A stretch of 32,157 nucleotides of DNA from a virus. The notes below the pieces were generated by a model that saw nothing but the letters and a program-made list of their open reading frames with translations, had not been told where the DNA came from and did not search any database. Each line of letters begins with the position of its first letter. The stretch's first letter is position 1. The stretch is taken from positions 1 to 32,157 of the IMG/VR virus record IMGVR_UViG_3300011113_000495. One strand, given 5' to 3'. The translations under genes were made by a program, and so were the position numbers. Shown piece by piece: positions 2,608 through 21,400 of this stretch.

Positions 2608-3009
2608 ATGGCAATAACTAGGATATCTAGATCATTTAAAGATATTAGTTTATCCTTTGAACCACATCCTGTGACAAAGGATCTACCGATTCTAACTAAT
2701 GAAAGAGCAATTATTCGCTCAATTCGTAATTTAGTTGAAACAATTCCAAATGAGAGATTTTTCAATCCTCTTCTTGGATCAAATGTACGTTCAAGTCTTT
2801 TTGACTTTGTTGATTATGGTACTGCATCAATCATCAATGATCAAATATTGAACGTTATTTCAAATTATGAACCAAGAGTAAATGATGTTCAAGTTAAGGT
2901 AGATCCTCGTCCAGATACAAATGAGTTTGAAATTACTGTGATTTTTAATATTATTGGTCAAGAAGTTCCAGCACAGCAGTTTTCCTTTATATTAGAGGCA
3001 ACAAGATAA
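2608..3009 (+). CDS. gp25: Baseplate wedge protein gp25 (sheath initiator)
   Basis: 133 residues, essentially the length of T4 gp25 (about 132). The family forms the platform on which the contractile sheath starts to polymerise and links it to the baseplate wedge; relatives include TssE of type VI secretion. The signature E-P-R triad is present at 88-90 (N-Y-E-P-R-V). It is preceded by the usual I-R-S-I-R-N-L-V-E-T region (36-45) and an F-x-P-x-L-G-S-N-V-R-S segment (52-62). The start is the ATG at 2608; an ATG at 2601 is out of frame. One base separates its stop from the gp6 start, so the two are likely co-translated. Late promoter at 2579-2586. No insertion or oddity. Confidence 0.93.
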   Translation: MAITRISRSFKDISLSFEPHPVTKDLPILTNERAIIRSIRNLVETIPNERFFNPLLGSNVRSSLFDFVDYGTASIINDQILNVISNYEPRVNDVQVKVDPRPDTNEFEITVIFNIIGQEVPAQQFSFILEATR

Positions 3010-3010
3010 A

Positions 3011-4951
3011 ATGCCTTTCACTAAGTTCTCTAATTTAGATTTTGATCAGATAAAAACCTCAATCAAAGACTATCTTCGTGCAAATTCTACGTTCACGGAT
3101 TTTGACTTTGAGGGGTCAAATTTTTCTGTTTTAATTGACACTCTCGCTTATAACACTTATATTACTGCATTCAACTCAAATATGGTTGTCAATGAGTCCT
3201 TTTTGGATTCAGCAACAATAAGAGAGAATGTTGTTTCCTTGGCAAGAAATATTGGTTATGTACCTAAGTCTAGAACCGCTGCGAGCGCGGTTGTTTCATT
3301 TACTGCACAACCAACAAGTTCAACGGCAACACTGACCTTACAGGCGGGTCTGGTGTGTACTGGCACTACGAATGGCACATCATATGTGTTTTCAATTCCA
3401 GAAAACACTACAGCATCTGTAAAGAATGGAGTTGCAACATTTAGCGACGTTACAATCAAGCAGGGAACATTTTTAAGAAAACAATTTACTGTTGATGGGT
3501 CGTTAGATCAAAGATTTATTTTAGATAACTCATATGTTGATACTTCCACAATTCGCGTTTATGTAAAAGGCATTGGCGATAGTGGTCTTGGTCAATTATA
3601 TACTCTTGTAGATAATATTTTTGAAATTGATTCAAATTCAAAAACGTATTTGATTCAAGAAGTCAAAGATGAAAAGTATGAACTTCTTTTTGGAGACGGT
3701 AGATTCGGCAAAAAACTTGATAATAATGCAGTCATCACTGTAACTTATATTATCACTGACGGAAAAAGTGGTAATGGTGCAAGTTCATTTACCTTTGCTG
3801 GAACATTTAAAAATGAAAGTGATAGTGTAGAAACTCTGAACAATACAATTTCAGTTACAACTTCTCAAACTTCACAAGGCGGATCTGATATAGAAAGTAT
3901 TGATTCTGTTCGTAGTTTTGCACCAAGATTATATGCTTCACAATATCGAGCGGTAACTGCAAGAGATTATGAATCTCTTATTAAATCAAAAATATATCCA
4001 GAAACTGAATCAGTATCTGTGGTTGGTGGTGAAGAATTAACACCACCACAATATGGTAAAGTCTTTATAAGTATCAAACCTAAAAATGGTACATATGTTT
4101 CGGATTTTGATAAGCAAGAAATTAAAAATAAACTAAAGCAGTATAGTGTATCTGGTATCAATCCAGAAATTCAAGACTTAAAGATATTATATGTTGAAAT
4201 TGATTCTTCAATCTATTACAATTATTCTCAGGTTGGTAGCGTAGAAAATTTAAAAACAAATGTTATCAAGTCTTTGAACACTTATGCATCATCAACTGAC
4301 TTAAATGCATTTGGTGGTAGATTTAAGTATAGTAAAGTATTGCAAGTCATCGATGCTACAGATACTGCAATTACTTCTAATATTACAAAAGTCAGAATTA
4401 GAAGAGATTTAAAAGCAAAAATTAATACACCAACTCAATATGAAATTTGCTTTGGTAATAAGTTTCATATAAATCCTGATGGAAAGAATATCAAATCAAC
4501 TGGTTTCAAAATTAATGGTGAAACAGACACTGTATATCTAACTGATACACCTGAAAAAAATTCTGACGGCACTTTAACTGGAAAAGGAACAATTTCAATT
4601 GTAAAGGAAATTCCAGTTTTAGTGAGTGTTGGGACTACAACAACTCTTAAAACACCAGTTGTAGTTCAATCTGCTGGAACTGTAAATTATGAAACAGGTG
4701 AAATTTTATTAGGGGCGTTGATAATTACATCAACTACATTGAGTCAAGATATTATTGAAATACAAGCTTTTCCAGAATCAAATGATGTTATAGGTCTTAA
4801 AGATCTATACTTATCTTTTAGCGTTTCCAAAAGCAAAATAAATATGATTAAAGATGTCATTGCTTCTGGTGATGACATATCTGGTGTGGTTTTCTCCACA
4901 AAAGATTACTACAGATCAAGCTATTCGAACGGGGAACTAACGAGGTCGTAA
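3011..4951 (+). CDS. gp6: Baseplate wedge protein gp6
   Basis: 646 residues against about 660 in T4. gp6 dimers form the continuous inner ring of the baseplate and belong to the baseplate J-like superfamily. The N-terminus carries the usual T-K-F-S-N-L-D-F-D-Q-I-K start. It continues with D-F-D-F-E-G-S-N-F-S-V-L-I-D-T-L-A-Y-N-T-Y (about 36-56) and the helix with F-L-D-S-A-T-I-R-E-N-V-V-S-L-A (about 65-79), then G-Y-V-P-K-S-R. The mid region (P-R-L-Y-A-S-Q-Y-R-A-V-T-A-R-D-Y, about 305-320) is the J-like core. A one-base gap on each side places it tightly between gp25 and gp7. Nucleotides 3271-3370 are markedly richer in G+C (about 53% by count) than the rest of the gene. Confidence 0.92.
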   Translation: MPFTKFSNLDFDQIKTSIKDYLRANSTFTDFDFEGSNFSVLIDTLAYNTYITAFNSNMVVNESFLDSATIRENVVSLARNIGYVPKSRTAASAVVSFTAQPTSSTATLTLQAGLVCTGTTNGTSYVFSIPENTTASVKNGVATFSDVTIKQGTFLRKQFTVDGSLDQRFILDNSYVDTSTIRVYVKGIGDSGLGQLYTLVDNIFEIDSNSKTYLIQEVKDEKYELLFGDGRFGKKLDNNAVITVTYIITDGKSGNGASSFTFAGTFKNESDSVETLNNTISVTTSQTSQGGSDIESIDSVRSFAPRLYASQYRAVTARDYESLIKSKIYPETESVSVVGGEELTPPQYGKVFISIKPKNGTYVSDFDKQEIKNKLKQYSVSGINPEIQDLKILYVEIDSSIYYNYSQVGSVENLKTNVIKSLNTYASSTDLNAFGGRFKYSKVLQVIDATDTAITSNITKVRIRRDLKAKINTPTQYEICFGNKFHINPDGKNIKSTGFKINGETDTVYLTDTPEKNSDGTLTGKGTISIVKEIPVLVSVGTTTTLKTPVVVQSAGTVNYETGEILLGALIITSTTLSQDIIEIQAFPESNDVIGLKDLYLSFSVSKSKINMIKDVIASGDDISGVVFSTKDYYRSSYSNGELTRS

Positions 4952-4952
4952 T

Positions 4953-7900
4953 ATGATACAAACGGGTTTTGAATCCAGGGTAAAAGTACAGCAAATAATT
5001 GACAGTCAACTTCCTAAATTTATTTTAGATGAAAGTCCAAAAGCTGCAGACTTTTTAAAACAATATTACATCTCTCAAGAATATCAAGGTGCTCCAATTG
5101 ATATTGTTGAAAATTTAGATCAATATCTAAAACTTGATAATTTAACTCCAGAAGTTGTCGTTGGATTTACCACACTTTCTTCTGGTATTTCTTCAACAGC
5201 AACTACTATCCAAGTTGCAACAACCAAAGGTTTTCCCCAAAACTATGGTTTGTTCAAAATTGATGATGAAATTATTACATATACAGGTTTAACTACAAAT
5301 ACATTTATTGGTTGTATTCGTGGATTTTCAGGTATTACAAGTTATCATCAAGATTTAAAATCTGAAGAATTAGTATTTTCCACATCAAAGAAAGCATCAC
5401 ACGTAGGTTTATCAACCGTTCAAAATTTAAGTTCACTTTTCTTACAAGAATTTTATAAAAAAGTTAAATATTCTCTTACTCCAGATCTAGAAAATAAAAA
5501 TTTTGTTTCCGACTTGAATGTGGGAAACTTTATAAAAGAAGCAAGAACTTTATATGAGTCTAAAGGAACAGAAGAATCTTATAGAATTCTTTTTAATGTT
5601 CTTTTTGGTGAGACGCCAAAAGTAATTGATCTTGAGCAATTTCTTGCCAAACCATCTTCAGCAACTTATGTAAGGAGAGCAGTTGTTGTTGCGGATACTA
5701 TTTCTGGAGATCCTCTTAAATTAGAAGGTCAAACTATATTTAAAAATAATGACACTACAACATCAGCATCAGTATCTGAAGTTGAAGTAATTAGAAGAAA
5801 AAATAAAACATATTATAAACTTTTACTTTTCATTGGTTATGATGATGCATTTCCAACAATTACTGGTTCTTTTCAAATTACAGGAAGTAGTAAAAATTTA
5901 GATTATGTAAGTGTTGGCAGTTCAGTTATTTCCGTAGATTCTACAATAGGGTTCCCAAAATCGGGCAAAATTTACTCTGGTGATAATGAAATTACCTACA
6001 CGAGTAAAAGTATTAATCAATTTTTTGGTTGTTCAGGAGTTACTTCTGGTATTGCAACTGCATCTACAATTCGTTCTGATGAAACTTATTATGGTTATGA
6101 AGATGGAGATATAACAAAAAGAGTTGAGTTAAGAATCACTGGAGTTCTATCTGACTATAAACCTATTACAACTGATTCTTCAGTTTCTGCTGGGGATCAA
6201 ATTAAAGTTAAAAATGTTGGTCAAATAATTCAAAATCCAATAAGCAATAAATCTTACAAACAAATTTTTGCAAATAGTTGGATTTACAATACTAGTTCAA
6301 GATTTGAAATTGATTCATTTGGTTCTGGATCAATATCACAGGTTACATTAAAAACTGATATTGATAAATCTAGTTTAAAAGTTGGTGATTATATTGATAT
6401 TTTGGCAGGTGGTTCACAAACTATAGTTGCATCTAATTTAAGAATAACAGGCATTTCTGGAAAACAAGTTACAACCGCACAAAGTTTTTCTTTATCCTCT
6501 GGGTTTGATTATGATGTAAGAAGAAAAATTAAAAATGCATCAAGTTCCTCCGTCGCATTAGAATTCACACCAACAACTTCGGATGTTCAAAATGTTTATA
6601 ATGATAATGATGAGTATATGTATGTTGCATCAAATTCATTACCATCATATCAAATAACTCAACCAATCTTTTCATATAATGCATCTGGAGTAAGTGGACA
6701 AAACTCCACTACTGGTTTATATTCAATAATTACTTTTTCAAGTCCAGTATCTTTTGTAACTGGATCTGAAATTTATTACACCCCATCAAATTCTCCAATT
6801 TCTGGTCTATCTGAAGGTGTTTATTATGTTGAAGTTCTTTCTGGAAATCTTGAAATTAAAATATACGCATCCAGATCTGTTATAGGAACATCAGATTATT
6901 TAACTTTTGGTTCATTAACATCAGGAACTCATAACTTTGTTTTAAACTCTCAAAAAGAAAAAGTTTTATCGCCGCAAAAAATACTTAGAAAGTTTCCACT
7001 CTCTGTCAATATTGGTGATGGTCAATCAGACTTAACAACACCAGGATCTGTAGGAATGTTGATCAATGGTGTTGAAGTATTGAGTTATAAGACAAATGAC
7101 AAGGTTTATTATGGTCCACTAAAATCTGTTGGTGTTTTGAATGGTGGTTCGGGATATGATGTGATCAATCCTCCACTTTTATCTTTATCATCAGGATCTG
7201 CACTTGTTCAACCAGTGGTTAGTGGAAGTGTAGAAAAAATTTATGTAGATCCTCAAGAGTTTGATATTGATGTTATTGTTTCCGTTGCTCTTACAGGGGG
7301 CAATGGTTCTGGGGCATCTTTTGAACCAGTAATTCAAAGAAAAAGAAGAGAGATTGAATTTGATGCTCGTCAACTGACAGATGGTGGTGGTGTTGATATT
7401 ACAAATGAGACAATAACCTTTTTATCTCAACACAATTTAGTTGGTGGACAACAAGTTGTTTATAGACTTGGAAGTAATCCATCTCTTGGAATTGGCACAT
7501 TTAATGGTTCAAATGCCAGCAGTGGAAATACTTTAAAAAGCGAATCAATATATTTTGTTAAGTATATTAGTGATACTACTATTCAACTTTATCAATCACT
7601 TTCAGATTATAGATCTGGAATCAATACTGTTGGATTTACAACTATTGGAACGGCAGGTATTCAAAAGTTTGCAACTGAACCAAAAAATACTCTATCAGAG
7701 ATTAAGGTAATAAATGGCGGTTCTGGTTATACTAATAGAAAACTTAGAGTTTCATCATCTGGCATATCAACAATAAATTATTGTGTTTCTTTCACAAATC
7801 ACGGTTTTAATGATGGAGAATTGGTTACTTACGCAAGCACTGGAAACTTAATTTCCGGGTTATCAACATCTAATCAATATTATGTTCTTAAAGTAGACAA

Positions 7901-10900
7901 TAATAACTTTAGACTATCAGATGCTGGTATAGGTGGAACAATAAGAACAAATTATGAGAGAAGAAAATGCGTTGGATTAAATTCAACTGGAAGTGGATAT
8001 CATATTTTTAATTATCCAGAAATTTCTCTTCAAGTTCAATATAGTGCTGTAGGATTAGGAAGCACCCAGTTCAGAGGATCAATATCTGCAACTCCAATTG
8101 TAAGAGGAAAAATTACAGATGTTTATGTTTATAATGAAGGATCTAATTATGGTTCGTCTATTTTAAATTACCATAAAAAACCCACAATATCAATTAAAAA
8201 CGGAAAAGATGCACAATTCAAACCAGTCATCGTTAATGGCAGAATAGAAGATGTATCTATCCAGTATAGTGGCACTGAATATTACTCAACACCTGATATC
8301 AAAGTATCTGGTGTTGGAACAGGTGCTATTTTAAGACCAGTAGTAGTTAACAATAAAATAACGGATGTAATTGTAGTAAATGCTGGCGCTGGATACTCAA
8401 CAGTAGATACAACAATATCTCCTAGTTCTGCAGGTAAAAATGCAATCTTCAATCCTCAAGTAAGAGATCTTAGTGTTAATAATAATGTTTTATATAATAA
8501 TGTAAGTGCAGGAACAACGGCAGCAAATGAAATCATATCTTCATCATATTCTAATTTACAATATGGTATTGCTGGTTATTCTCAAATAGTTCAAAATGAG
8601 TTTGAAGATACTGGCGCATCACATTCTCCAATTATTGGGTGGGCTTATGATGGGAATCCAATTTATGGATCGTATGGTTATTCAGATCCAAAAGACGAAA
8701 ACTCATCTCTTAAAAAATTAGTTTCTGGATACACATTAAATTCAACAAATGTATCAAACAGACCATCTGAATTTTCTGTTGGATTTTTCTTAGAAGATTA
8801 TACATTTACAAATTCTGGAGATCTTGACGAATACAATGGTAGGTTCTGTATCACACCAGAATTTCCAAATGGAGTTTATGCTTATTTTGCAACATCAATT
8901 ATTGATGCACAAAATAATGTTGTAGGTAGTTTTCCATATTTTATTGGAAATAGATATAGATCAAAATTTATATCTGAAAATAAAAAATTAGATCAGACAT
9001 TTGATTTTAATAACTCAAACTTAGTTAGAAATACTTTCCCATACAAGGTTAATGAGGAATATGCTGATAATGATTTTATTATAGAGTCTAATGAAGTTAT
9101 TAACCAAGTTACAGTTGTAGAATCAGTTTCTTCTGGTTATATTGACGAATTTGAAATCATTAATTCGGGAACTGACTATAAGGTTGGTGATAGTCTTCAA
9201 TTTGATGAAAGTAATACTGGCGGGGGTGGATTAGTTGCAGAAGTAACAGAAGTTGAAGGTAAAGAAATTGTAGATTTGCAAACTTCAACTACATCATACG
9301 ATGACGTTATCTTTACTTGGAATAATGGAGATCAAATTCAAGTAAAAGTTAGTCCACAACATAGTCTACAAAACTTAGATTATGTAAATGTTTCTGGTCT
9401 TTCTACTGAACTTTCATCTTTAAATGGATCTCATCAAATTGGGGTAACTTCTTATACCTCATCTTTAGTTAAGGATATTCCGGCATATTCATCTGCAGGA
9501 ATCGTAACTGACATTTATATCGCTAACATTCCAGAAAATATTTCTGTTGGTAGTAGTATTAAGGTAGAATCGGAAACATTATCTGTTTTAAATATTTTTT
9601 CAACTCAAAATGTAGTTAGAGTTGTTAGAGAAACAACAGGAACTGCACATACTGCAACTACTACAGTTAATTTTATACCAGATACTTTTACAATTAATAA
9701 ATCAGTAAATTACTTTGAATCTAAGGTTAATGATTTAATATATTTCAATCCAAATCAATCTATTGGTGTAGGAACAACTTCTGGTGTTGGAGTTGCTGTT
9801 ACTAATAATGTTGGAGTTCAGACTAACAATATAATCTCAATCCCAACACAATCAATTTATTTACCAAATCACCCATTTAAAACAAATCAGGAAGTTATTC
9901 TATCAAAATTATCTACAGCATCTGCAATCTCAGTAGCAAATACCTCTGGAAGTACTGCATTCAATTTACCATCTAGTGGAAATAGTCAAACTGTTTATAT
10001 TATTAAAAAATCTGCAGATTATATTGGAATAGTAACTCAAGTTGGATTAACAACTTCAACAAATGGTCTTTTCTTCATTAGCAATGGATCCAACAATTAT
10101 CAATATTCATTACAATCTAATTTTACACAAGTAAAGGGTGACATTCAAAAAATTGAAACCAGGGTTTCTGTATCTACCTCACATAATCTTGTCTCTGGAG
10201 ATAGTATCAATCTCTCAGTTAAACCAAATCTTTCTGTCGGTATTGGAACTTCTACTTCAATTCGCATTTCAAGAGACTCTTCTACTAACTATATTTTAAT
10301 CAATTCTATTGGATTTAATTCCACAGGAATTAATACCACAACCAACATCATTAATATTGCATCACACAATTTAAAAACTGGAGATAAAATAAGATATTCA
10401 GCAAATGTAACAGCAAATGGGTTATCAAATGGGTTCTACTATGTTTATAAAGTTGATGATAATAATATTAAATTATCAGAAACTTATATAGATTGTGCAG
10501 AAACACTACCCCCAAGAACTATAAGTATTGCTAGCACAGGAGGATCTTCACAAAGTATTTCTCTTATTAACTCACCAATATCCGTAATCAAAAATAATAA
10601 TCTTGTATTTGATTTGACAGATTCTTCTTTATCTGGTTATAAGTTTAAAATATTCTATGATCAAAATTTCAAAGATGAATTTGTTTCGACAGGATCTACA
10701 AATACATTTTCAATTTCTGGAGTAGGAACTGTTGGAGTATCAACAAATGCATCATTAACTATTAATTACACTGAAAATATTCCATCTCAATTATTCTACG
10801 CTTTAGAAAAATCTGGTTACATAAGCACTGCAGATAAAGAAGTTCAAAATTATTCTCAGATTAGTTTTGTAGATAGTTACTATAATGGTTCTTATAAAAT

Positions 10901-13900
10901 TTCTGGAGTTGGAACAACCACTTTCAATATTTGTTTAACAAAATCTCCAGAGAAAAATTCATACACTCAATCTGAGTGTGATGTAATAAAATACACAACC
11001 AATTCATCCACGACTTCTGGAGGAGTATCTAAAGTAACAGCGACTTCTCCCGGTATTAACTTTAAAAAGTTACCAGTGTTTGAGGGCATAGATTCTATTT
11101 CTGGAACGGGAGCATATATTGTACCAAAATCAAATACAATTGGTAAAATTAATGAAATTAGAATTGTAAATGAAGGTTTTGAGTATGCATCCGATAAAAC
11201 TCTGAGACCAGAAGCATCGGTTCCTAAATTTGCTACGATTAAAAATTCTAATACTATTAGTAATATTTCAATTTCTAATGGTGGTAAAAATTACATATCA
11301 TCACCAGATTTAATTATAGTAGATTCTGATACTGGAGAAAAAATTAACTCGGGATTATTAATTGCAAATCTAGACAGTAGTTCAATAAGATCAGTTACAA
11401 TAGATGCGGCACCATTTGGTCTCCCCGATACAATTGTAACTATAAGAGCAATTAATAATACCAATGGAGTTGGAATTCAAACTGTTCAATCATCAAGTTC
11501 GGGTATTGTAACTTGCATTTTAGTCACTCCTCTTGCAGGATTTACTACAGAACCGTTTGCTGTGGGCGATAAAATATTCGTAGAAGGAATACAAAAATAT
11601 GGCACAGAAGGTGATGGTTTAAATTCAGAAGATTATGGATATGACTTCTTTACCGTTTCAAGTTATACGAATGGAGGAACACTTCTCCCCAGACAGTTAC
11701 AATTTAATTTATCAGGTCTTACAACTAATCCTGGTATAGCAAAAACCGCAGAAAATTTCTACGGAACCGTAATTAACTATAATAATTATCCAAAGTTTAA
11801 TATTACACAAAGTTTTTCAAACTTTATAATCGGAGAGACATTAGAGGTTAAGAATGAAATTGGTTTCATAAAACAGGATTTGATAATTAGTGAATCAAAT
11901 CAAAACTATCTTAAAATTTCTGGAACTTACGCTCTACAAGCAAATCAAATTATCAGAGGAACTCAATCAAGATCAATAGCAACAGTTAATAGTGTTAAAG
12001 AGTCATCTGGTCAATTTAATGTTGGATATGCCTCAACTCAAAGAATTGGTTGGGCAGATGATATTGGTAAATTAGATGAAGATACGCAAGTTATTTCAGA
12101 TAACGACTATTACCAGAATCTTTCATACTCAATAAAGAGTAATCAAGAATGGTCTGATATTGTTAGCCCAGTAAACGGACTACTTCACCCATCTGGACTC
12201 AAAAATTTCTCAGATACTCAAATCACTGAGAATGTTGGTGTAGGAACAACAGCAGTACAAGAATATGTCTACTCTTTTTATGATGTTATAAATGAAAATA
12301 GAGTTGATACTATTAATAATTTTGATCTTGTCCTAGATGTTGACACTTTAGGAGAAACTTCTAAGTTCTTAAAATTCAAAAATAAAAAATTAACCGATTA
12401 TATTGAATGTAGAACTAATAGAGTTCTTGATATTGATGATATTAGTTCTCAATTTTCTTCTTCGGATCAAATTTCTAATTTAGATACTTCTTCAATAGTT
12501 GCAGACATTATTCCATCAAGAAGATATAATAAGTATTTGGTACAGATATCAAGTAAAGATTATTCGCAAACACAGTTTAGTGAGATTGTTGTTCTTAACA
12601 ATACAACTGATGTCTTTACCTTAGAAAAGGGTTCAATTAACACAGGTATATCTTCCGAAGTTGGATATGTGTCTAACGGAATTGGTAATGTATATGGTTA
12701 TATTGATGATATTTCGTCAAATTATTACTTAAAATTTGAACCTACTGAGGCATATAATACAACATATAATATTAAGTACTTAAATACAACATTTTCAAAT
12801 TTCACAAGTGGTGTTGGAACTACTTCAATAGGATTTGTCTCTCTAACTGGAATAACTTCTACAGTTTCTTCTGGTTCAACTTCAATTCTTTTACAAACTC
12901 CAACATCAGTTTTAAAATCAGTACACTCAGAAATTCATATCATTGATAATACAACTGATGAAATGAATTATGTTGAAATTTTTGTTGATCATGACGGAAC
13001 TGATACAAATATTGCAGAACTTTATTTTGATGATGAAGATGGATTAAGTTCTAACTTTATAGGAACATTTGGCGCATCAATTAGTGGTGGAATTTTAACA
13101 CTTAATTATACAAATACTTCAAGTAATGATGTAATTATCAGAACAAAAAATGTTGGTTTTGGAACAACGGCATCTGGAATAGGGACATATAGATTTAAAC
13201 AATCTGGACAAGTTGATGGATTTGAAAACACCGTCAATTATAACTCAAATTATTCAAATATTTCTTCAGCATCTACAATTACATCATTTAATTCATCTAC
13301 TTATACATCATTAAAATCAACTGTGAGGGTTGGATTAGGTCAAACAAGCGCACTCCACCAAGTAATGCTTGTTGTAGACTCTTCAAACATATACACAACC
13401 CAATATCCCTTCCTTTCAATAGGAAGTACATCTGGAATAGGTACTTTTGGTGGAGAATTAGTAGGATCTACGGTTTCACTTAAGTTCTATCCAGATTCTT
13501 CAATATCTGGAACTTTTGAGATTCTAAGTTTTAATGAAATTTTCTTTAAAGAAAATGATTATATAAACATCCCTCCAGATTTACAATATAGTAATATTTT
13601 AGAGTCTGTAGGAGTTTCAAAATATTTTGCAATTAATGATGATGATTTAAATAAACTCAATTTTGAGTTAAATCACCAAGGAACACCCATTTTTATGAAG
13701 ACATTTGATCCTTCAAATTCTTCTATCTTGAACCGCGCAACTGGAACATTTAGCATTCAGAATCACTTTTTTAGCACTGGCGAGGAATTAATTTATACTC
13801 CAAATTCAACCTTTGTTGGTGTTGCTGCAAGTTCTGTTGGTATAGGTTCAACCCTTAATTACGTTGGTGTAGTTACCAGTATACTTCCATCAACTGTATA

Positions 13901-16844
13901 TGCAATTAAAATTGATAATAACAACTTTAAATTAGCAACTAGAAAGGAATATGCAAATGCGGGTATATCAGTAACCTTTACCTCTATTGGTTCTGGAAAT
14001 GCTCATGAATTGGAGATGGTTAAAAAGAATGAAAAATCAATTATCTCCATTGATAATATTATTCAATCGCCAATTGCATACTCCTTATTAACTTATACAG
14101 TCAATAATGGTGGTCAAATTGGAACTGCATCTACAATTTTTGGTTTGAGTGGAATATCTTCAATTATAATTGGTGACATTTTAAAAATTGATAATGAATA
14201 CATGAGTGTCATCAATGTTGGTTTGGGGACAACATACTCTGGTCCAATATCTTTTGCTGGAACATTCCCACTAGTAAATGTTCAAAGAGGGTTTGTTGGA
14301 TCATCAGCAACTACTCATTCAAATTCTGGTATTGCATCTGTCTATAGAGGATCATTTAACATTGTAAAGAGTGACATTTATTTCACTCAACCACCTCAAG
14401 GAAGTTTAGAAGATCAATTATTTGTAGATTCTGATGAACTCTCAGAGGCAAGATCTTATTTCAATGGAAGGGTCTTTTTAAGAAAAGATTATACAACTAA
14501 TCAAGTTTATGACAACATTTCAGAAACATTCACTGGAATAGGTCAAACTTATAGATTAACCGTTGGTGGTGCAAATACAGTTGGTTTAGGAACTAGTGGA
14601 GGAAGTGGAATTGTACTAATCAATGGTATATTTCAAACACCAACAACTGAAAACAATGCAAATAATAATTTTAGAATTATAGAGAATTCTTCTGTTGGAA
14701 TCACCAGTATAGTATTTTCTGGAATTACATCAGCAAATGGTTCAATTGTAATTTCAGAATCTGATGTAAATATGAACCAACTTCCTAGAGGTGGTGTGAT
14801 TGTTTCTCTCGGATCAACAGCAGGATTAGGGTACGCACCATTAGTTGGAGCATCAGTAACAGCAATAGTTTCTGGAGGATCAATTACTTCAATTGGTATC
14901 GGAACTACAGGTAATTGGGGTTCTGGATATAGAAGTCCAGTTTCAGTAGCAGTTACGGAAACTGGTCACTCTGGAACCGCTGCTACAATCACAGCTCTGG
15001 TTGGTGCGGGAGGGACATTATCATTTACTATTGTTGGTGGTGGAAGTGGATATATTAAACCAACAATTAATATTTCTCCACCAAATTACAATAATTTATC
15101 CGTCACTGGTGTTTCTAGATTGGGAGTTGGTGCAACCACTGCATGTGGAACTGGTTTATTATTAAATGTTTCCGTTGGTGCTCGTTCTACAACAGGCATA
15201 GGTTCAACTTTATTTGAAGTAACTGGATTTAATATTACTCGTAATGGATATGGTTTTAAAACTGGAGATGTTATTAAGGCAGTTGGTCTTGTAACTGCTT
15301 ATGGTCTAGCACAACCATTATCAGAATTTGAATTAACTGTACTTGAAACCTTTAGCGATTCATTCTCATCATGGCAATTTGGTCAATTGGATTATATTGA
15401 TTCAATTAAAAATCTCCAAGATGGAAATAGGACTAGATTCCCATTATATTATAATTCTCAGTTATTAAGTTTTGAGCGCAATGCAAATGATGTTGATTCT
15501 CAATTGATTGATTTTAATCAATTGTTAATTATATTTGTTAATGGAATTCTTCAACAACCAGGTGTTGCGTACAACTTTACTGGGGGAACATCGTTTACAT
15601 TTACAGATGCTCCTAAAGTAGATGATAATGTTGCAATTTACTTCTATCGCGGTAGTTCTGCAGATAGCACATCTGTTGATGTATTTGAGACCATTAAACC
15701 TGGAGATGATCTCCAAGTTTTCAGCAATAATGGTAACGTGGGTATTACAACAACTCAAAATCTCAGAGTAATATCTGAAATTATCAGTTCAGATAAAGTT
15801 AAAACACCTCTTTATACGGCACAAGGAATAGATCAAATAATAGAAAAACCTGTTTATTGGACTAAACAAAAAGTAGATAAAGTCATTGATGGTGAATTAG
15901 TTTCAAAAGCAAGAGACTCTATTGAACCGCAAATTTATCCAACTGCAAAAGTTATTAAAACCATAACTACAGGTAGTAATGAAATATTTGTGGATAATGC
16001 AGCATTCTTTAATTATGAAGGTGACCCATCAATTGATTTTGATGCAATAATTATTTCTGGTGCTGCCGATCCTGTGTCTGCTGCTGTGACCGCAATTGTC
16101 TCTGCTGCAGGAACAATTCAATCATTGTCTATTAATAGTATTGGTAGTGGATATACCGGATCATCCGTTAATGTAAGTATTTCTTCACCACCAAGAATTG
16201 GAGTTGGCATAGGAACTACAGCAACTGCATCAATTTCTATTGTAAATGGTTCTTTATCTACCGCTACAATTATCAATCCAGGATTTGGATATACTACTGC
16301 ACATGCTCCACAAGTTCTTGTTCCTTTACCAGATCCAATCTATGAAAATATAACAAGTGTAACTGGTATTGCAGGAACATCTGGAAATATTACTGGAATA
16401 AGCACAACAGTTGGCATAGGAACAAATCTTGCAATTAACTTCACACTATCTTCTGTTTCTGGTCTCTCTGTTGGTTATCCAATTTACATTTATAATACAA
16501 TAGTTGGTAATGGAGTTACATCAATCATTAGTACAAATTCTGATATTGTTGGTGTGGGAACTACTTGTTTGGATAACATTTATTATATCAGTGGTATTGA
16601 CGCTGGTGTTGGAATTATCACATGCAATATTCATTCTCAGTCTTCAACAGTTGGTATTGCAACTACAGGATCTATTGTTGGCAATTTCTCTTGGGGAAGA
16701 ATGACAGGATTCTCAAGATCTTCCTCTCCAATTTCAATTGGAGTTTCTGGATTTATGGTTAATTCTGGTCTAACAACATTCCCAACAATTCAAAGAAGAG
16801 GGTATGGTTTGAGAAATATTGGTCCAATTAAAAAGACTCTCTAA
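4953..16844 (+). CDS. gp7: Giant gp7-type baseplate wedge protein (3963 aa)
   Basis: A single 11.9-kb frame in the gp7 slot between gp6 and gp8. T4 gp7 is about 1032 residues. Residues 203-220 (S-K-G-T-E-E-S-Y-R-I-L-F-N-V-L-F) and the following V-x-x-L-E-G-Q-T-I-F match the T4 gp7 stretch S-T-K-G-I-E-A-S-Y-K-F-L-F-K-V-L and its L-V-G-Q-T-I-Y. In T4 that lies in the C-terminal third; here it is N-terminal. About 3600 further residues are beta-rich and low in Cys. In order they hold: dEIIxYT modules (about 71-133 and 311-376); GSGYT repeats; several H-x-L-x-x-G-D modules ending in YYVxKVDnnnxxL; a YHYH-like domain (1217-1340); a threefold repeat (about 2512-2864); and a V-N-G-I-L-Q-Q-P fibre-type module (about 3524-3570). 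gp7 organises wedge assembly and contacts gp6, gp8 and gp10 in T4. The extensions probably form peripheral baseplate domains; their role is unknown. Confidence 0.85.
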   Translation: MIQTGFESRVKVQQIIDSQLPKFILDESPKAADFLKQYYISQEYQGAPIDIVENLDQYLKLDNLTPEVVVGFTTLSSGISSTATTIQVATTKGFPQNYGLFKIDDEIITYTGLTTNTFIGCIRGFSGITSYHQDLKSEELVFSTSKKASHVGLSTVQNLSSLFLQEFYKKVKYSLTPDLENKNFVSDLNVGNFIKEARTLYESKGTEESYRILFNVLFGETPKVIDLEQFLAKPSSATYVRRAVVVADTISGDPLKLEGQTIFKNNDTTTSASVSEVEVIRRKNKTYYKLLLFIGYDDAFPTITGSFQITGSSKNLDYVSVGSSVISVDSTIGFPKSGKIYSGDNEITYTSKSINQFFGCSGVTSGIATASTIRSDETYYGYEDGDITKRVELRITGVLSDYKPITTDSSVSAGDQIKVKNVGQIIQNPISNKSYKQIFANSWIYNTSSRFEIDSFGSGSISQVTLKTDIDKSSLKVGDYIDILAGGSQTIVASNLRITGISGKQVTTAQSFSLSSGFDYDVRRKIKNASSSSVALEFTPTTSDVQNVYNDNDEYMYVASNSLPSYQITQPIFSYNASGVSGQNSTTGLYSIITFSSPVSFVTGSEIYYTPSNSPISGLSEGVYYVEVLSGNLEIKIYASRSVIGTSDYLTFGSLTSGTHNFVLNSQKEKVLSPQKILRKFPLSVNIGDGQSDLTTPGSVGMLINGVEVLSYKTNDKVYYGPLKSVGVLNGGSGYDVINPPLLSLSSGSALVQPVVSGSVEKIYVDPQEFDIDVIVSVALTGGNGSGASFEPVIQRKRREIEFDARQLTDGGGVDITNETITFLSQHNLVGGQQVVYRLGSNPSLGIGTFNGSNASSGNTLKSESIYFVKYISDTTIQLYQSLSDYRSGINTVGFTTIGTAGIQKFATEPKNTLSEIKVINGGSGYTNRKLRVSSSGISTINYCVSFTNHGFNDGELVTYASTGNLISGLSTSNQYYVLKVDNNNFRLSDAGIGGTIRTNYERRKCVGLNSTGSGYHIFNYPEISLQVQYSAVGLGSTQFRGSISATPIVRGKITDVYVYNEGSNYGSSILNYHKKPTISIKNGKDAQFKPVIVNGRIEDVSIQYSGTEYYSTPDIKVSGVGTGAILRPVVVNNKITDVIVVNAGAGYSTVDTTISPSSAGKNAIFNPQVRDLSVNNNVLYNNVSAGTTAANEIISSSYSNLQYGIAGYSQIVQNEFEDTGASHSPIIGWAYDGNPIYGSYGYSDPKDENSSLKKLVSGYTLNSTNVSNRPSEFSVGFFLEDYTFTNSGDLDEYNGRFCITPEFPNGVYAYFATSIIDAQNNVVGSFPYFIGNRYRSKFISENKKLDQTFDFNNSNLVRNTFPYKVNEEYADNDFIIESNEVINQVTVVESVSSGYIDEFEIINSGTDYKVGDSLQFDESNTGGGGLVAEVTEVEGKEIVDLQTSTTSYDDVIFTWNNGDQIQVKVSPQHSLQNLDYVNVSGLSTELSSLNGSHQIGVTSYTSSLVKDIPAYSSAGIVTDIYIANIPENISVGSSIKVESETLSVLNIFSTQNVVRVVRETTGTAHTATTTVNFIPDTFTINKSVNYFESKVNDLIYFNPNQSIGVGTTSGVGVAVTNNVGVQTNNIISIPTQSIYLPNHPFKTNQEVILSKLSTASAISVANTSGSTAFNLPSSGNSQTVYIIKKSADYIGIVTQVGLTTSTNGLFFISNGSNNYQYSLQSNFTQVKGDIQKIETRVSVSTSHNLVSGDSINLSVKPNLSVGIGTSTSIRISRDSSTNYILINSIGFNSTGINTTTNIINIASHNLKTGDKIRYSANVTANGLSNGFYYVYKVDDNNIKLSETYIDCAETLPPRTISIASTGGSSQSISLINSPISVIKNNNLVFDLTDSSLSGYKFKIFYDQNFKDEFVSTGSTNTFSISGVGTVGVSTNASLTINYTENIPSQLFYALEKSGYISTADKEVQNYSQISFVDSYYNGSYKISGVGTTTFNICLTKSPEKNSYTQSECDVIKYTTNSSTTSGGVSKVTATSPGINFKKLPVFEGIDSISGTGAYIVPKSNTIGKINEIRIVNEGFEYASDKTLRPEASVPKFATIKNSNTISNISISNGGKNYISSPDLIIVDSDTGEKINSGLLIANLDSSSIRSVTIDAAPFGLPDTIVTIRAINNTNGVGIQTVQSSSSGIVTCILVTPLAGFTTEPFAVGDKIFVEGIQKYGTEGDGLNSEDYGYDFFTVSSYTNGGTLLPRQLQFNLSGLTTNPGIAKTAENFYGTVINYNNYPKFNITQSFSNFIIGETLEVKNEIGFIKQDLIISESNQNYLKISGTYALQANQIIRGTQSRSIATVNSVKESSGQFNVGYASTQRIGWADDIGKLDEDTQVISDNDYYQNLSYSIKSNQEWSDIVSPVNGLLHPSGLKNFSDTQITENVGVGTTAVQEYVYSFYDVINENRVDTINNFDLVLDVDTLGETSKFLKFKNKKLTDYIECRTNRVLDIDDISSQFSSSDQISNLDTSSIVADIIPSRRYNKYLVQISSKDYSQTQFSEIVVLNNTTDVFTLEKGSINTGISSEVGYVSNGIGNVYGYIDDISSNYYLKFEPTEAYNTTYNIKYLNTTFSNFTSGVGTTSIGFVSLTGITSTVSSGSTSILLQTPTSVLKSVHSEIHIIDNTTDEMNYVEIFVDHDGTDTNIAELYFDDEDGLSSNFIGTFGASISGGILTLNYTNTSSNDVIIRTKNVGFGTTASGIGTYRFKQSGQVDGFENTVNYNSNYSNISSASTITSFNSSTYTSLKSTVRVGLGQTSALHQVMLVVDSSNIYTTQYPFLSIGSTSGIGTFGGELVGSTVSLKFYPDSSISGTFEILSFNEIFFKENDYINIPPDLQYSNILESVGVSKYFAINDDDLNKLNFELNHQGTPIFMKTFDPSNSSILNRATGTFSIQNHFFSTGEELIYTPNSTFVGVAASSVGIGSTLNYVGVVTSILPSTVYAIKIDNNNFKLATRKEYANAGISVTFTSIGSGNAHELEMVKKNEKSIISIDNIIQSPIAYSLLTYTVNNGGQIGTASTIFGLSGISSIIIGDILKIDNEYMSVINVGLGTTYSGPISFAGTFPLVNVQRGFVGSSATTHSNSGIASVYRGSFNIVKSDIYFTQPPQGSLEDQLFVDSDELSEARSYFNGRVFLRKDYTTNQVYDNISETFTGIGQTYRLTVGGANTVGLGTSGGSGIVLINGIFQTPTTENNANNNFRIIENSSVGITSIVFSGITSANGSIVISESDVNMNQLPRGGVIVSLGSTAGLGYAPLVGASVTAIVSGGSITSIGIGTTGNWGSGYRSPVSVAVTETGHSGTAATITALVGAGGTLSFTIVGGGSGYIKPTINISPPNYNNLSVTGVSRLGVGATTACGTGLLLNVSVGARSTTGIGSTLFEVTGFNITRNGYGFKTGDVIKAVGLVTAYGLAQPLSEFELTVLETFSDSFSSWQFGQLDYIDSIKNLQDGNRTRFPLYYNSQLLSFERNANDVDSQLIDFNQLLIIFVNGILQQPGVAYNFTGGTSFTFTDAPKVDDNVAIYFYRGSSADSTSVDVFETIKPGDDLQVFSNNGNVGITTTQNLRVISEIISSDKVKTPLYTAQGIDQIIEKPVYWTKQKVDKVIDGELVSKARDSIEPQIYPTAKVIKTITTGSNEIFVDNAAFFNYEGDPSIDFDAIIISGAADPVSAAVTAIVSAAGTIQSLSINSIGSGYTGSSVNVSISSPPRIGVGIGTTATASISIVNGSLSTATIINPGFGYTTAHAPQVLVPLPDPIYENITSVTGIAGTSGNITGISTTVGIGTNLAINFTLSSVSGLSVGYPIYIYNTIVGNGVTSIISTNSDIVGVGTTCLDNIYYISGIDAGVGIITCNIHSQSSTVGIATTGSIVGNFSWGRMTGFSRSSSPISIGVSGFMVNSGLTTFPTIQRRGYGLRNIGPIKKTL
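5559..5800 (+). other. T4-gp7-like core segment inside the giant protein
   Basis: Residues about 203-283 of the giant protein. S-K-G-T-E-E-S-Y-R-I-L-F-N-V-L-F-G-E and the downstream L-K-L-E-G-Q-T-I-F-K with an alternating beta segment correspond, from memory of T4 gp7, to S-T-K-G-I-E-A-S-Y-K-F-L-F-K-V-L-Y-N-E and L-V-G-Q-T-I-Y. This is the basis for calling the gene gp7 and fits its place between gp6 and gp8. Confidence 0.75.
7117..8460 (+). repeat. GSGYT-type protein repeats in gp7 (first cluster)
   Basis: Protein-level repeats with the pattern I-x-V-x-N-G-G-S-G-Y-x-x-x-P-x-(L/I)-x-(L/I), a small-residue stretch such as G-S-A or G-T-G-A, and F-x-P-V-V-x-x-G-x-I-x-x-V. Clear copies are near 7135 (N-G-G-S-G-Y-D), 7715 (N-G-G-S-G-Y-T), 8130 (N-E-G-S-N-Y), 8265 (Y-S-G-T-E-Y-Y) and 8380 (N-A-G-A-G-Y-S). 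An H-x-F-x-D-G-E module of another type lies between copies. Degenerate copies recur near 9145-9260 and 11020-11330. Confidence 0.7.
8601..8972 (+). other. YHYH-like domain embedded in the giant gp7
   Basis: Residues about 1217-1340. H-S-P-I-I-G-W-A-Y-D-G-N-P-I-Y-G-S-Y-G (from H1224), then L-D-E-Y-N-G-R-F, then P-N-G-V-Y-A-Y-F-A-T and F-P-Y-F-I-G. This is the order of landmarks in YHYH-family domains (DGxPIYGPY, LDECNGRF, YHYHxT, yPYxxGC). The naming YHYH box reads Y-A-Y-F and the usual Cys residues are Tyr and Asn, so any metal site of the family is probably altered. Function in a baseplate is unknown. Confidence 0.65.
12490..13545 (+). repeat. Threefold domain repeat in gp7
   Basis: Three diverged copies at about 12490-12795, 12883-13157 and 13305-13545. 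Shared features are a leading (S/R)-x-x-(H/Y)-x-x-(I/L)-x-(I/V) strand, an acidic turn, a V-E-I-F-V-D-H-D or S-E-I-V-V-L-N-N strand, a G-T-F-G or G-N-V-Y-G turn, a hydrophobic L-x-L-x-Y/F strand and a final T-F-E-I or N-V-I-I strand. Repeated beta-sandwich domains are likely. Boundaries are approximate. Confidence 0.5.
14830..15270 (+). repeat. GSGYT-type protein repeats in gp7 (second cluster)
   Basis: Copies W-G-S-G-Y-R-S-P-V-S-V-A-V (about 14920) and G-G-S-G-Y-I-K-P-T-I-N-I-S (about 15040), followed by a degenerate N-G-Y-G-F-K-T-G-D-V-I (about 15245). Between them lie Gly/Thr-rich I-G-I-G-T-T and G-T-A-A-T-I-T-A strands. Same family as the repeats at 7117-8460 and in gp14. Confidence 0.7.
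15522..15660 (+). other. Fibre-type VNGxLQxP module in gp7
   Basis: Residues about 3524-3570: I-F-V-N-G-I-L-Q-Q-P-G-x-x-Y-x-F-T-G-G, then F-T-F-T-D-A-P-x-x-D-D-x-V-x-I-Y-F-Y-R-G. The pattern NGxLQxPxxxY, FxxAP, DxVxIxYxxG is common in phage tail-fibre and appendage proteins. A degenerate copy reads L-I-N-G-I-F-Q-T-P near 14620. Confidence 0.55.
16080..16330 (+). repeat. GSGYT-type protein repeats in gp7 (C-terminal cluster)
   Basis: Two copies near the C-terminus of the giant protein: I-G-S-G-Y-T-G-S-S-V-N-V-S-I (about 16140) and P-G-F-G-Y-T-T-A-H-A-P-Q-V-L-V (about 16280). They are joined by V-G-I-G-T-T-A-T-A-S-I-S-I-V-N-G-S-L-S, the same alternation as in the other clusters. Confidence 0.65.
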
Positions 16845-16876: not shown

Positions 16877-18454
16877 ATGTCTGCAATTGTAACAGATCAG
16901 TTTAGAATACTTAATGCTTCTAATTTTATAGATTCTGTTAATGATTCTTCAAATTCTTATTATGTTTTTGTTGGTTTATCAAATCCATCACCATCTTCTG
17001 TTGGATTTGGTAGAGATACAAATTGGGACACTACTTCACCAAATCCAACAGATAATATTGATTATTTAAATCATTATGAATCAACAGTTTTATTTGGCAA
17101 AAAGATTACTAGTGCAAATATTAGAAGAGTAATTAGAAAAATTAGTTGGACTTCTGGTCAACAATATGAAATGTATAGACCAGATTACAGTGTTATAAAT
17201 CCTGCACCCATCTCTGGTGCTATGAGACTGTATGATGCAAATTACTATGTTATTAACTCTGATTACAGAATTTATATTTGTATTGATAATGGTTCTTCTG
17301 GCATTAAAACAACGGGAAATGCATCTCAAGTAGAACCAACTTTTACAGATTTAGAACCATCTGAGCTTAGTGATGGTTATGTATGGAAATATCTCTATAC
17401 AGTTTCTCCCAGTGACATTATAAAATTTGATTCTACTGAATACATTACATTGCCAAATGACTGGGAAGTTTCAACTGATGCCCAAATTACTGCGGTGAGG
17501 GAAAATGGTAACTCAGATTTAAATGAAAATCAGATTAAAAAAGTATATATTAATAATCAGGGTTTAGGATATACCTTATCAAATGGTCAATCTTGCAATT
17601 TAGTTGGTGATGGTTCTGGAGGAGTAATTTCTGTAGAAGTTGATGCAAATGGAAAAATTACAGATGTAACTGTTACATCTGGCGGAAAAGAATATACATA
17701 CGCTTTAGTAGATTTGGGAACATCAAGTACGAATATTCCCAGTGTTTATGCAGAATTAATTCCAATTATTCCACCATCAAAGGGACATGGATTTGATTTA
17801 TATAAAGAATTAGGGGCGGATAAAATTTTAATTTATGCTCGTTTTGATGATTCTACGAAAGATTTTCCAGTAGACTCTAAATTTGCTCAAGTTGGTATTT
17901 TAAAAAATCCAAGTATTTACGATTCTACTGGGGTAAGTACGACAGTATATACTCAGAATGAATTTTCTGGAGTGTATTCGATGAGATTTAGTTCAGTAAC
18001 AGGTGGAACTCCAGCAGTTGGTGATAAAATTCAACAAATTCAAACAAGCGGCAAAAAAGCACTTGGATATGTTGTCTCCTATGATTCTGAAACAAAAGTT
18101 TTAAAATATTCTAGAGATAGATCATTATATTATGGTGGAGGTGGTGGAACCACTCATACAGACTTTATAGGAGTTTCTACATTTTTCACTTCGTCTGGAA
18201 GTTTGGTTGATTTTACTAGTGGAGTTCAAGTTTCAAAAGTTGGTGGTGGATGGAATGCTACAATAGGCAATTTTAGTGGAATAACCACAACTATTTCAAA
18301 TAAAATTATAAACCTTGGTGTGGAGTTTACAAATGGGTTTGCAACCCCAGAGATAAATAATAAGTCGGGCGATATAATTTATATCGACAATAGACCAACG
18401 GTTTCTCGAAATTCTAGACAAAAAGAAGACGTTAAAATTATCCTGGAATTTTAA
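16877..18454 (+). CDS. gp8: Baseplate wedge protein gp8
   Basis: 525 residues against 334 in T4. gp8 is a dimeric wedge protein that joins gp7, gp10 and gp6. The N-terminus (I-V-T-D-Q-F-R-I-x-N-A-x-N-F) parallels T4 A-I-V-T-S-K-F-R. The segment D-G-Y-V-W-K-Y-L-Y-T-V-S-P at about 168-180 matches T4 D-G-Y-V-W-E-Y-L-F-E-I-P-P. The end G-D-I-I-Y-I-D-N-R-P with V-K-I-I-L-E-F matches T4 G-E-M-I-Y-M-E-N-R-P with I-N-I-L-F-T-F. The extra length is partly an insertion at about residues 223-282 of GSGYT-type repeat (N-Q-G-L-G-Y-T), the same family as in gp7 and gp14, plus further beta-rich Gly/Ser segments (H-T-D-F-I-G-V-S-T-F region). The T4 match at both ends and in the middle makes the call firm. 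Its own late promoter is at 16850-16857. Confidence 0.9.
   Translation: MSAIVTDQFRILNASNFIDSVNDSSNSYYVFVGLSNPSPSSVGFGRDTNWDTTSPNPTDNIDYLNHYESTVLFGKKITSANIRRVIRKISWTSGQQYEMYRPDYSVINPAPISGAMRLYDANYYVINSDYRIYICIDNGSSGIKTTGNASQVEPTFTDLEPSELSDGYVWKYLYTVSPSDIIKFDSTEYITLPNDWEVSTDAQITAVRENGNSDLNENQIKKVYINNQGLGYTLSNGQSCNLVGDGSGGVISVEVDANGKITDVTVTSGGKEYTYALVDLGTSSTNIPSVYAELIPIIPPSKGHGFDLYKELGADKILIYARFDDSTKDFPVDSKFAQVGILKNPSIYDSTGVSTTVYTQNEFSGVYSMRFSSVTGGTPAVGDKIQQIQTSGKKALGYVVSYDSETKVLKYSRDRSLYYGGGGGTTHTDFIGVSTFFTSSGSLVDFTSGVQVSKVGGGWNATIGNFSGITTTISNKIINLGVEFTNGFATPEINNKSGDIIYIDNRPTVSRNSRQKEDVKIILEF
17548..17725 (+). repeat. GSGYT-type insertion in gp8
   Basis: V-Y-I-N-N-Q-G-L-G-Y-T, then G-D-G-S-G-G-V-I-S-V-E-V, then G-K-I-T-D-V-T-V-T-S-G-G-K-E-Y-T-Y. 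This is one full repeat and the start of a second, with the same strand order as the repeats in gp7 and gp14. No such segment is recalled in T4 gp8. Confidence 0.65.
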
Positions 18455-18457
18455 AAG

Positions 18458-21400
18458 ATGGCTCAAAAAACTAATCTTAATGTAAGCCCATATTTTGATG
18501 ACTTTGCGGAAGAAAATATTGGCGCAAGGGACAAAAATTACTATAAAGTTCTTTTTAATCCAGGAAGACCTATACAGGCACGAGAGTTAAACACTCTTCA
18601 ATCAATACTTCAAGATCAAGTAGAATCTTTTGGAAGTCATATTTTCAAAGAAGGATCTTTAGTTATTCCAGGAAATATTACTTTTGATCCTCAATTTAAT
18701 GCTGTTAAATTAGTATCTCAACAATACAATGTTGAAGTTTCCTCTTATCTGGCAAATTTTGTTGGCAAAACAATAACAGGTCAAATATCTGGCATATCTG
18801 CAACAGTTCAAAAGGTTCAACTTCCCAATACTGCATTAGGAGTAACATATCCAACTCTTTATGTCAAATATTTAAAATCAGATTCTAATTTTGAAATCAA
18901 TCCTTTTCAAAATAATGAACAGTTAGTTGCATCTGAAACAGTAGGAACAATAACAGCAGGCACTCCTTTTGCAACTACCGTCGCCTCTAATGCAACTGCA
19001 ACTGGTTCTGCTGCTTCTATTGGTGAAGGTGTTTATTTTATTAGAGGAACGTTTGTTAGAGTTCCAAAGCAAACTTTAATCTTAGATTACTATACAAATA
19101 CTCCTTCATATAGAGTTGGTCTAAGAGTAGATGAGCAAATCATTACTGCCAAAGATGATTCTGCTTTATATGACAATGCAAAAGGATTTAGTAATTATGC
19201 AGCTCCTGGAGCAGATCGATTCAAAATATCTCTAACTTTAACTAAAAAATCATTAACTGATACTAATGATATTGATTTTGTAGAGTTATTAAGAGTTAAA
19301 GATGGTGCAATTAAAAAGGTAGAGGTTAAGTCTAGTTATTCTCTCATAAGAGATTATTTAGCACAAAGAACTTATGATGAGTCTGGTGATTATGTTGTAG
19401 ATCCATTTGAGTTTTCATTAAATAATTCTCTAAATAATCGACTTGGTAATGATGGTTTATTTTTCAGTAATGAAAAAACAGATCAAGGTGCAACTCCATC
19501 AGATGACTTAATGTGTATTAAGTTCTCTCCAGGTAAAGCATATGTAAAAGGATATGATATTGAAAAAACTGGTGTTGAAATTGTAGACGTATCTAAACCA
19601 AGAACAAAACAAACCATTTCTTCGGTTAATATACCATTTGAAATGGGGAACTTATTAAGAGTTAATAATGTAACTGGATCTCCAAAACAAAAACAAGAAG
19701 TTTACCTACAAAGTCGCAGAAAAAACAGTACAACAGTTGCTGCTGGTTCAACAATAGGTTCTGCAAGGATTTATAGTTTTAATGTAACGGATGCTGCGTA
19801 TACTGGCGCATCTACCAATTGGGATTTGTACTTATATGATATTCAAACTTATACTGAGTTAACGTTAAATCAGTCAGTATCACCCACTCAATTACCAGCA
19901 ACTTCATTTATTAAAGGTAAAAGTAGTGGTGCTAGTGGTTATGTGGTTTCTGCTGGGTCTAATTCTACTGTAGTCAATATTAGACAAACCTCAGGAACTT
20001 TTGCTGTTGGTGAACAAATTTTAATCAATGACTCCGAAATATATCCAAGAACTATTTCATCAATTAAAGTATTTGGTATTGAAGATGTAAAATCAATTCA
20101 CCAACCAACTTCAATTTCTGGATTTACCACAGCATTTTTATCTGATGCTCAACTTGATAGAATTAATAGAGCAGAAACAATCACAATATCTGCTGGTAGT
20201 GGTGGAATCAGCACTGCAACTGTTGCTTCTCCAGCGACTTTTAGTGGAATTAAAACCGATAATATTATTAGATATCAAAGAGCAGGTATAACAACCGAAG
20301 TTTACAATCGCGTTGTATCAATATCTCCTGCTTTAAATTCAATGACACTAGAAGCAGTTACAACTGTATCTGGTATTTGTGATGGATCATTGCCATCATC
20401 TCAATTCAGTGGAGCATATGCTCTTGGTGCAACAAAAATTAAAAATGAGCAGAAAGGATTTTTATACGCTCAACTTCCAGATTCAAATATTGCTTCTACC
20501 GATCTAAGTACGTCAACAATAACTTTCACTGCTCAATCTAATACAACACTCACACCATCTTCAAATACTCTAACAGTAGACACTGGAAAATTCAGTCTTG
20601 GTATCAATACAGCAACTGCAAGATTTGAAGCATTTGATGAGGAAAGATATTCAATATTCTATACTGATGGCACAATAGAAAATTTAACATCCGACAAAGT
20701 AACTTTAAGCGCAAATTCAGATCAGGTTACATTTTCAAATATTCAAAATAAACAAATATCAGTTATTAATGCAACCTTTGTTAAAAATGGCGTTCAAAGC
20801 AAACAAAAACAGTTTAATAGATCAAAAACTTTAAACATAACTCTTTCAAAAAATCCTCAATCTGGAACTGGTATTAATACTTCTACAGGAGATGGACTTA
20901 CATACAATCAATATTATGGATTGAGAGTTCAGGATGAAGAGATAAGTTTAAATTATCCAGATGTTGTTAAAGTTATTGCAGTTTATGAGTCTTTAACAAC
21001 CAGTGTTCCAGTTTTAGATCAAATTTCATTTAGTTCTGTTGCAAACGTTGACGCAAATGCAATTATTGGTGAAAACATTATAGGTGATGAGAGTAATGCA
21101 ATAGCAAGAATAGTAACCAAACCATCTTCAAATACATTGGGTATTGTATACTTAAACAATAGCAGATTTACTTCTACTGAAAGTGTTACTTTTGAAGAGT
21201 CTAATATAAAAACAACAATTACCTCAATTACCTCAGGAACATATCGAGATATAACCACAAAATTTGTTCTTGACAAAGGACAAAAAGAACAATATTATGA
21301 CTACTCAAAAATTATTAGAAAATCTGGAGAGTCGGCACCTTCAAAACAACTTTTGATCGTATTTGATTATTACTCTGTTCCAACTGGAGATACTGGAGAT

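Follow-up and report, generated by a model that had tools for sequence, protein, structure and literature searches.

A gp7 core split by a long insertion in the giant baseplate wedge protein of a T4-like cyanophage

The window (the whole stretch of DNA analysed, 32,157 nucleotides) is a 32-kb IMG/VR fragment of a T4-like cyanophage, and its forward strand carries a wedge operon in the order gp25-gp6-gp7-gp8, as in P-SSM2. The sheath initiator gp25 lies at 2608..3009 (PHROG_261, baseplate wedge; gp25 holds the same position in P-SSM2), gp6, the core-bundle partner, at 3011..4951 (PHROG_219, E 2e-204; Pfam Gp6-like_1st helical domain), and gp8 at 16877..18454 (Pfam Phage-Gp8). Between gp6 and gp8, the place of the gp7 family in the wedge operon, a single stop-free ATG frame at 4953..16844 (+) encodes a gp7 homolog of 3,963 residues, a baseplate wedge protein by PHROG_2885 (E=0) and by synteny. 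It starts 2 bases past gp6 and ends 32 bases ahead of gp8, and it is the giant gp7 of the preliminary description, which takes up 37% of the window and is about 3.8 times as long as T4 gp7 (1,032 aa). Residues 2-3328 give a near full-length match to PHROG_2885, "baseplate wedge subunit" (3826 bits), and residues 1-500 have matches in 462 phage records, nearly all of them cyanophages; in the gp6 tree the nearest sampled relative of the window phage is S-SRM01. Immediately upstream of gp25, at 1926-2267, there is a host-like metabolic gene for S-adenosylmethionine decarboxylase, found in the same place in S-SRM01, and a small ORF of 151 aa at 26372-26827 matches parts of several large baseplate wedge PHROGs.

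Each T4 tail contains six copies of gp7, a monomer which lies at the wedge periphery and touches gp6, gp8, gp9, and gp10 (PMC3004832). The parts of T4 gp7 (PDB 5IV5, 5HX2) that are colinear with the window protein are a helical region spanning about 643-759, domain V (766-861), and, about 5 residues further on, a closing HPxG segment (866-892). Encoded like the window protein between gp6 and gp8, T4 gp7 differs from it by 640 extra N-terminal residues and by a domain VI (920-1012). We found the counterparts of the colinear parts in the window gp7 in the T4 order: core piece A1, a core-bundle helix-turn-helix at residues 14-58 (4992..5126, +; T4 gp7 about 648-690); core piece A2, the SKG(T/I) helices, at residues 162-247 (5436..5693, +; T4 about 711-759), which contains YESKGTEESYRILF; the domain V equivalent at residues 241-310 or thereabouts (5673..5882, +); and core piece B, the closing YYQ...HPxG segment, at residues 2379-2422 (12087..12218, +; T4 about 866-892), with the sequence DYYQNLSYSIKS...LLHPSGLKNF. 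These elements of the gp7 family are present, with B displaced by about 2,070 residues.

The profile that detects these pieces was built from compact gp7s only (IMG/VR contigs and phages ZZ01 and 7757), with neither window-like nor T4 proteins in the set, and was cut into A1, A2, and B, with which real, reversed, and shuffled proteins were scanned. A1 scored 17.3 bits in the window gp7 against 2.7 for the best of 138 shuffled or reversed controls, A2 35.4 bits (control maximum 6.7), and B, of which the protein has a sole copy, 36.3 bits (control maximum 4.9). At the colinear sites of T4-family gp7s, A2 reached 27-32 bits and B a modest 8-14 bits; a direct comparison of A1 with T4 gp7 was weak, 5.1 bits at best. 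One above-control copy of each piece, in T4 order, occurs in the window gp7 and in twelve other gp7s tabulated (cyanophage, pelagiphage, and rhizobial), and the uncut compact profile gives three successive matches in the window protein, at 14-65, 156-425, and 2276-2423. T4 proteins had entered the search set of the iterated profiles, which are therefore possibly circular, and we base our claims on uniterated profiles with shuffled and reversed controls.

The compact gp7s came to light when tblastn of T4 gp7 matched Desulfovibrio phage 7757, whose protein, together with that of Synechococcus phage BUCT-ZZ01, revealed gp7s of about 600 residues with an N-terminal core. IMG/VR yielded 80 more compact-gp7 loci, most of them with the whole core in about 350-430 residues, and no relatives of the gp7 of phage 7757 itself. 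The compact core consists of helices ("lPdFv..d...f..FLeAYYEWle", then "fY.aKGtEkSykllFr.ly"), followed by a beta region and by "D..yYQ.FSYVlk......y....k...HPAG...FG". In profile-profile comparison it aligns to T4 gp7 641-829 (probability 98.7, E 2.4e-16); among PDB sequences the compact profile best matches the gp7 of 9f4a (E 9.6e-11) and that of T4 (8.6e-8), and in Foldseek the AF2 model of the compact core finds three gp7 chains as its only hits with E<0.001 among 491, with nothing else below E 0.1.

For the window protein itself, phmmer with residues 1-400 found no match among PDB sequences, so the relation is one that profiles detect. With hhalign, window residues 151-370 align to T4 gp7 717-856 (probability 96.3, E 1.7e-9), which bears out the relation to T4 gp7 proposed for residues 1-320, and PHROG_964, the T4 gp7 family, is matched over its positions 726-788 by window residues 193-265 (E 0.0062). 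When profiles of 220-residue segments were slid along the protein and compared with a profile of six T4-family gp7s, segment 1-220 reached probability 89.7, segment 151-370 the 96.3 given above, and segment 2251-2470 E 0.007 to T4 775-920; the last signal and a motif scan together led to the finding of B. The other segments gave E 0.17 or worse against the same six-member profile. Foldseek with the AF2 model of residues 1-335 ranked the same three gp7 chains 1-3 (E 8.6e-4 to 3.2e-2). This model has a mean pLDDT of 55 and low TM-scores to gp7, so that the similarity is local only; the order of its helices and strands is that of the compact core.

These results bear on the view that gp7 is absent from cyano- and pelagimyophages and replaced by VrlC (PMC7029224, 2020), under which the window ORF would be an unrelated structural protein; gp7 had also been counted outside the cyanophage core genes (PMC3037559, 2010). 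Consistent with such a replacement, the T4 N-terminal two-thirds are missing, the Pfam family PF23786 (Baseplate_wedge), which is matched by 38 of 38 compact relatives, reaches 13.2 bits in residues 1-335 against a cut-off of 27, and the Pfam domains of T4 gp7 are likewise below cut-off in the window protein. However, all three core pieces lie in the gp7 ORF and in none of the other listed window ORFs, VrlC included, the structural and profile matches are to gp7, and the loci concerned also have a VrlC homolog next to gp7 and gp8, so we regard this view as very improbable. The VrlC-like protein of the window (18458-25639) is itself a giant, 2393 aa long, and contains an RGxxG hairpin (1982-2042). 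The identity of the window ORF as an ortholog of T4 gp7 is well shown, and an insertion of about 2,070 residues divides its core where T4 has a junction of only a few residues.

Several statements of the preliminary description can now be refined. It had placed the T4-like core at about residues 200-285; the N-terminal location holds, and the extent is larger, since the core begins near residue 14, continues through A2 and domain V to about 310, and closes with B, so that a part of the gp7 core, the closing segment only, does lie elsewhere in the protein. The loss of the T4 N-terminal two-thirds was confirmed: no segment matched T4 1-640 below E 0.17, except the N-terminal end of the true core match, and neither these domains nor domain VI (920-1012) were detected in the window gp7. 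Among the proteins compared, both occur only in T4-family gp7s, and we did not take them as defining the family. The notion that the core had moved to the N-terminus does not stand, as N-terminal cores are usual in compact and mid-size relatives and in the 242-residue ortholog of Vibrio phage XM1 (PMC10457771); a simple relocation of the core was dropped once B had been found at 2379 and N-terminal cores had proved common. Since the core is N-terminal, and its spacers small, in marine, rhizobial, and other phages, it looks as if the 640 N-terminal residues of T4 were the exception, a special case.

The sequence that follows domain V, described earlier as some 3600 modular beta-rich residues after the core, is indeed made of beta-rich modules; it is not a single C-terminal extension, and falls into an in-core insertion at residues 311-2378 (approximate start; 5883..12086, +) and a C-terminal tail of about 1,540 aa at residues 2423-3963 (12219..16841, +). 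At the domain V-B junction T4 has about 5 residues, and the compact phages with the closest spacing have roughly 100. A1 and A2 are separated by a smaller insert, about 103 residues long, with an RGxxG beta hairpin module at residues 78-131 (5184..5345, +), of which a second copy lies at 319-369; the corresponding insert has about 610 residues (605-612) in P-SSM4 and S-SSM4. Ten GSGY beta-module matches lie in a zone at residues 718-3783 (7104..16301, +), and beside these the insert and tail contain two RGxxG hairpins, several HxL..YYV modules, and a YHYH domain. As one GSGY-type stretch is already present between domain V and B in the compact gp7s, growth of the insertion through repetition of this resident module is a natural reading of the sequences.

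The same module family was seen in other virion proteins. In gp8 (525 aa vs 334 in T4) the GSGY matches at residues 190-285 are apparently inserted into a T4-like fold, and the neck protein gp14 (27669-29063, 464 aa) is extended by four GSGY matches at residues 168-382. There is also a match (PDB sequence profile, E 2e-7) between domain I of the T4 tail sheath protein gp18 and the GSGY-type beta stretch in a compact gp7 core (L104:3971-5083), and Pfam Gp18_dom_I is found in 14 of 38 compact gp7 members, a hint that one module family may be common to sheath and baseplate.

The YHYH domain lies within the insertion at residues 1218-1318 (8604..8906, +; Pfam PF14240). YHYH domains are predicted to be metal-dependent hydrolases (PMC7824862), and the arm could accordingly be imagined as an enzyme that aids in breaching the cell wall: the Pfam score is far above the cut-off (98.8 bits vs 25), and the domain sits within the insertion in 8 of 8 giant gp7s matched by motif (the window and seven others). 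On the other hand, the match is confined to the C-terminal half of the Pfam model (87-185 of 193), and in place of an intact Y-H-Y-H signature the window gp7 and most relatives have YAYF, from which we would expect the predicted metal site to be altered, its ligands probably lost in part. An enzymatic arm is therefore unlikely.

The split core was found in every cyanophage gp7 tested, from 1,454 to 7,312 aa, and the sizes of the spacer between A2 and B (all of which include domain V, about 60-70 residues) and of the tail vary widely: 99/302 in phage 7757, 193/233 in ZZ01, 516/207 in HTVC008M, 795/21 in phiM7, 1082/88 in S-CRM01, 1579/1183 in S-PM2, 2139/1464 in S-SRM01, 2131/1541 in the window, 2223/2674 in P-SSM2, 2828/3304 in S-SSM4, and 2802/3720 in P-SSM4. 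The compact gp7s (BUCT-ZZ01 607, Desulfovibrio phage 7757 586, Mendera 503, and RHph_I1_18 528 aa; Pfam PF23786) resemble the window protein in a core that runs from the N-terminus and in the beta region that separates domain V from B, and differ in having only 99-324 residues from A2 to B. The cyanophage gp7s of PHROG_2885 (P-SSM2 5195, S-SRM01 3895, ACG-2014f 4225, and P-TIM68 4307 aa) share the split core, with 2139-2223 aa between A2 and B vs 2131 in the window, and differ in module indels and in their tails (1464-2674 aa). P-SSM4 (7312 aa) and S-SSM4 (6932 aa) keep the three pieces in the same order and have a first insert of 605-612 aa, a second of about 2800 aa, and tails of more than 3300 aa. 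Next to P-SSM2 and P-SSM4 the size of the window gp7 is ordinary for the group. A single origin of giant gp7 is possible, with 35% support in the gp6 tree, which has no outgroup root. The split-core gp7 of Pelagibacter phage HTVC008M (L179:19521-22571; B at 764-810) carries the annotation head closure Hc2, probably on account of shared GSGY modules.

A further reading takes gp7 as a polyprotein cut after assembly, with a small gp7 left in the wedge and the insert and tail as separate proteins, and indeed B could join A in trans. We consider this quite improbable: relatives keep an uninterrupted frame (four from IMG/VR, 3,895-4,123 aa), and homologs are treated as single proteins in GenBank and in proteome reports. 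The S-SKS1 homolog (L183:18001-30387), largely unannotated, matches the window gp7 over its full length with several frame changes, and in a 236-kb IMG/VR relative (L192:8202-18946) the frame switches near window residue 3150-3164, and residues 2511-2904, approximately, are missing. Programmed frameshifting was considered for these two and rejected, as the switches lie at different places, some by A-runs, and are most likely sequencing indels. In virions of S-CREM2, ORF122 (1,937 aa) was represented by 91 unique peptides (PMC10665884); this ORF has the split core, with A2 at 158-237 and B at 1875-1919, so a split-core gp7 is present in virions. Giant cyanophage gp7s were already known and are annotated in GenBank (P-SSM2, P-SSM4, and S-SRM01); the split core appears to be new, as we found no description of it in the literature searched, which took in few subscription papers.

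Known orthologs suggest how such a chain may be arranged. In Vibrio phage XM1 the core bundle is made up of two gp16 chains and the N-terminal helices of gp17, whose C-terminus and one core loop hold the tail spikes (PMC10457771); gp17 resembles the window gp7 in this helix-turn-helix and in the outward projection of loop and C-terminus, and differs in being minimal and, by our reading of the helices, in having the spike-holding loop at another point of the core. The gp7-like part of Alg12 in AlgoCIS was termed an evolutionary hotspot for re-engineering (PMC8894135). By analogy with these two and with T4 gp7, we infer that each chain has a normal core from which two large arms extend. A1, A2, domain V, and B would fold as one unit with two gp6 chains, B folding back on A, and this core bundle would, as it does in T4, bear gp25 and the sheath. 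After domain V the chain would run outward through beta modules strung over about 2,070 residues before coming back to the core at B, and a second arm of about 1,540 residues would depart from the C-terminal side; with six copies of gp7, twelve large arms would surround the baseplate. The arms would most likely form the peripheral baseplate, taking the role that the N-terminal domains of gp7 and gp8-gp12 have in T4, and may provide docking sites for fibres or spikes and relay the attachment signal to the core bundle. We give this reading as a whole, a gp6-gp7 wedge core with two long arms that form the peripheral baseplate and its docking sites, a probability of about 0.7; the extra baseplate layer suggested in the preliminary description is plausible.

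Conservation along the extension is even in close relatives (mean identity 50-77% per 150 residues), and no hypervariable receptor-binding tip stands out there. We therefore do not favour a role of the arms in recognising the host directly. The same evenness would suit extensions that are purely mechanical, an enlarged stiff outer layer or dome with neither fibre docking nor host sensing, as would the GSGY modules shared with gp8 and gp14, which suggest a general structural padding of the virion. Against a purely mechanical role, the known gp7 orthologs hold spikes or fibres by core loops and termini (PMC10457771, PMC8894135, PMC3004832). A second point against it comes from S-PM2, in which an early non-synonymous mutation arose, during chemostat culture with the host, in an ORF of exactly 3,048 aa (PMC9910659). 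The S-PM2 gp7 has 3,048 aa, and, given this identical length and a place near gp8 and virulence-associated genes, the mutated ORF is probably gp7. A mechanical role thus has some claim to consideration, and we think it the less probable outcome. Docking arms remain our preferred reading, and a bolder form of it can be offered tentatively: in Kyanoviridae, gp7 might be a one-chain baseplate periphery, in which beta modules that multiplied at the one junction within the core and at the C-terminus replaced gp9-gp12, the separate peripheral proteins of T4, and fibre docking and the contraction trigger became covalently wired to the core bundle.

T4-like cyanophages are abundant in the ocean, and they do possess gp7, despite earlier statements (PMC3037559, PMC7029224). 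The three-piece core offers a simple test for gp7s of 503 to 7,312 residues throughout the T4 superfamily, and corrects annotations such as that of the HTVC008M protein; for S-PM2 it gives a probable identity to the exceptionally large ORF which changed during coexistence with the host. It also assigns the great variation in size of one baseplate protein to insertion sites that can be defined within a conserved machine, and the split tells structural biologists which residues, distant in sequence, should meet in the map of a cyanophage baseplate.
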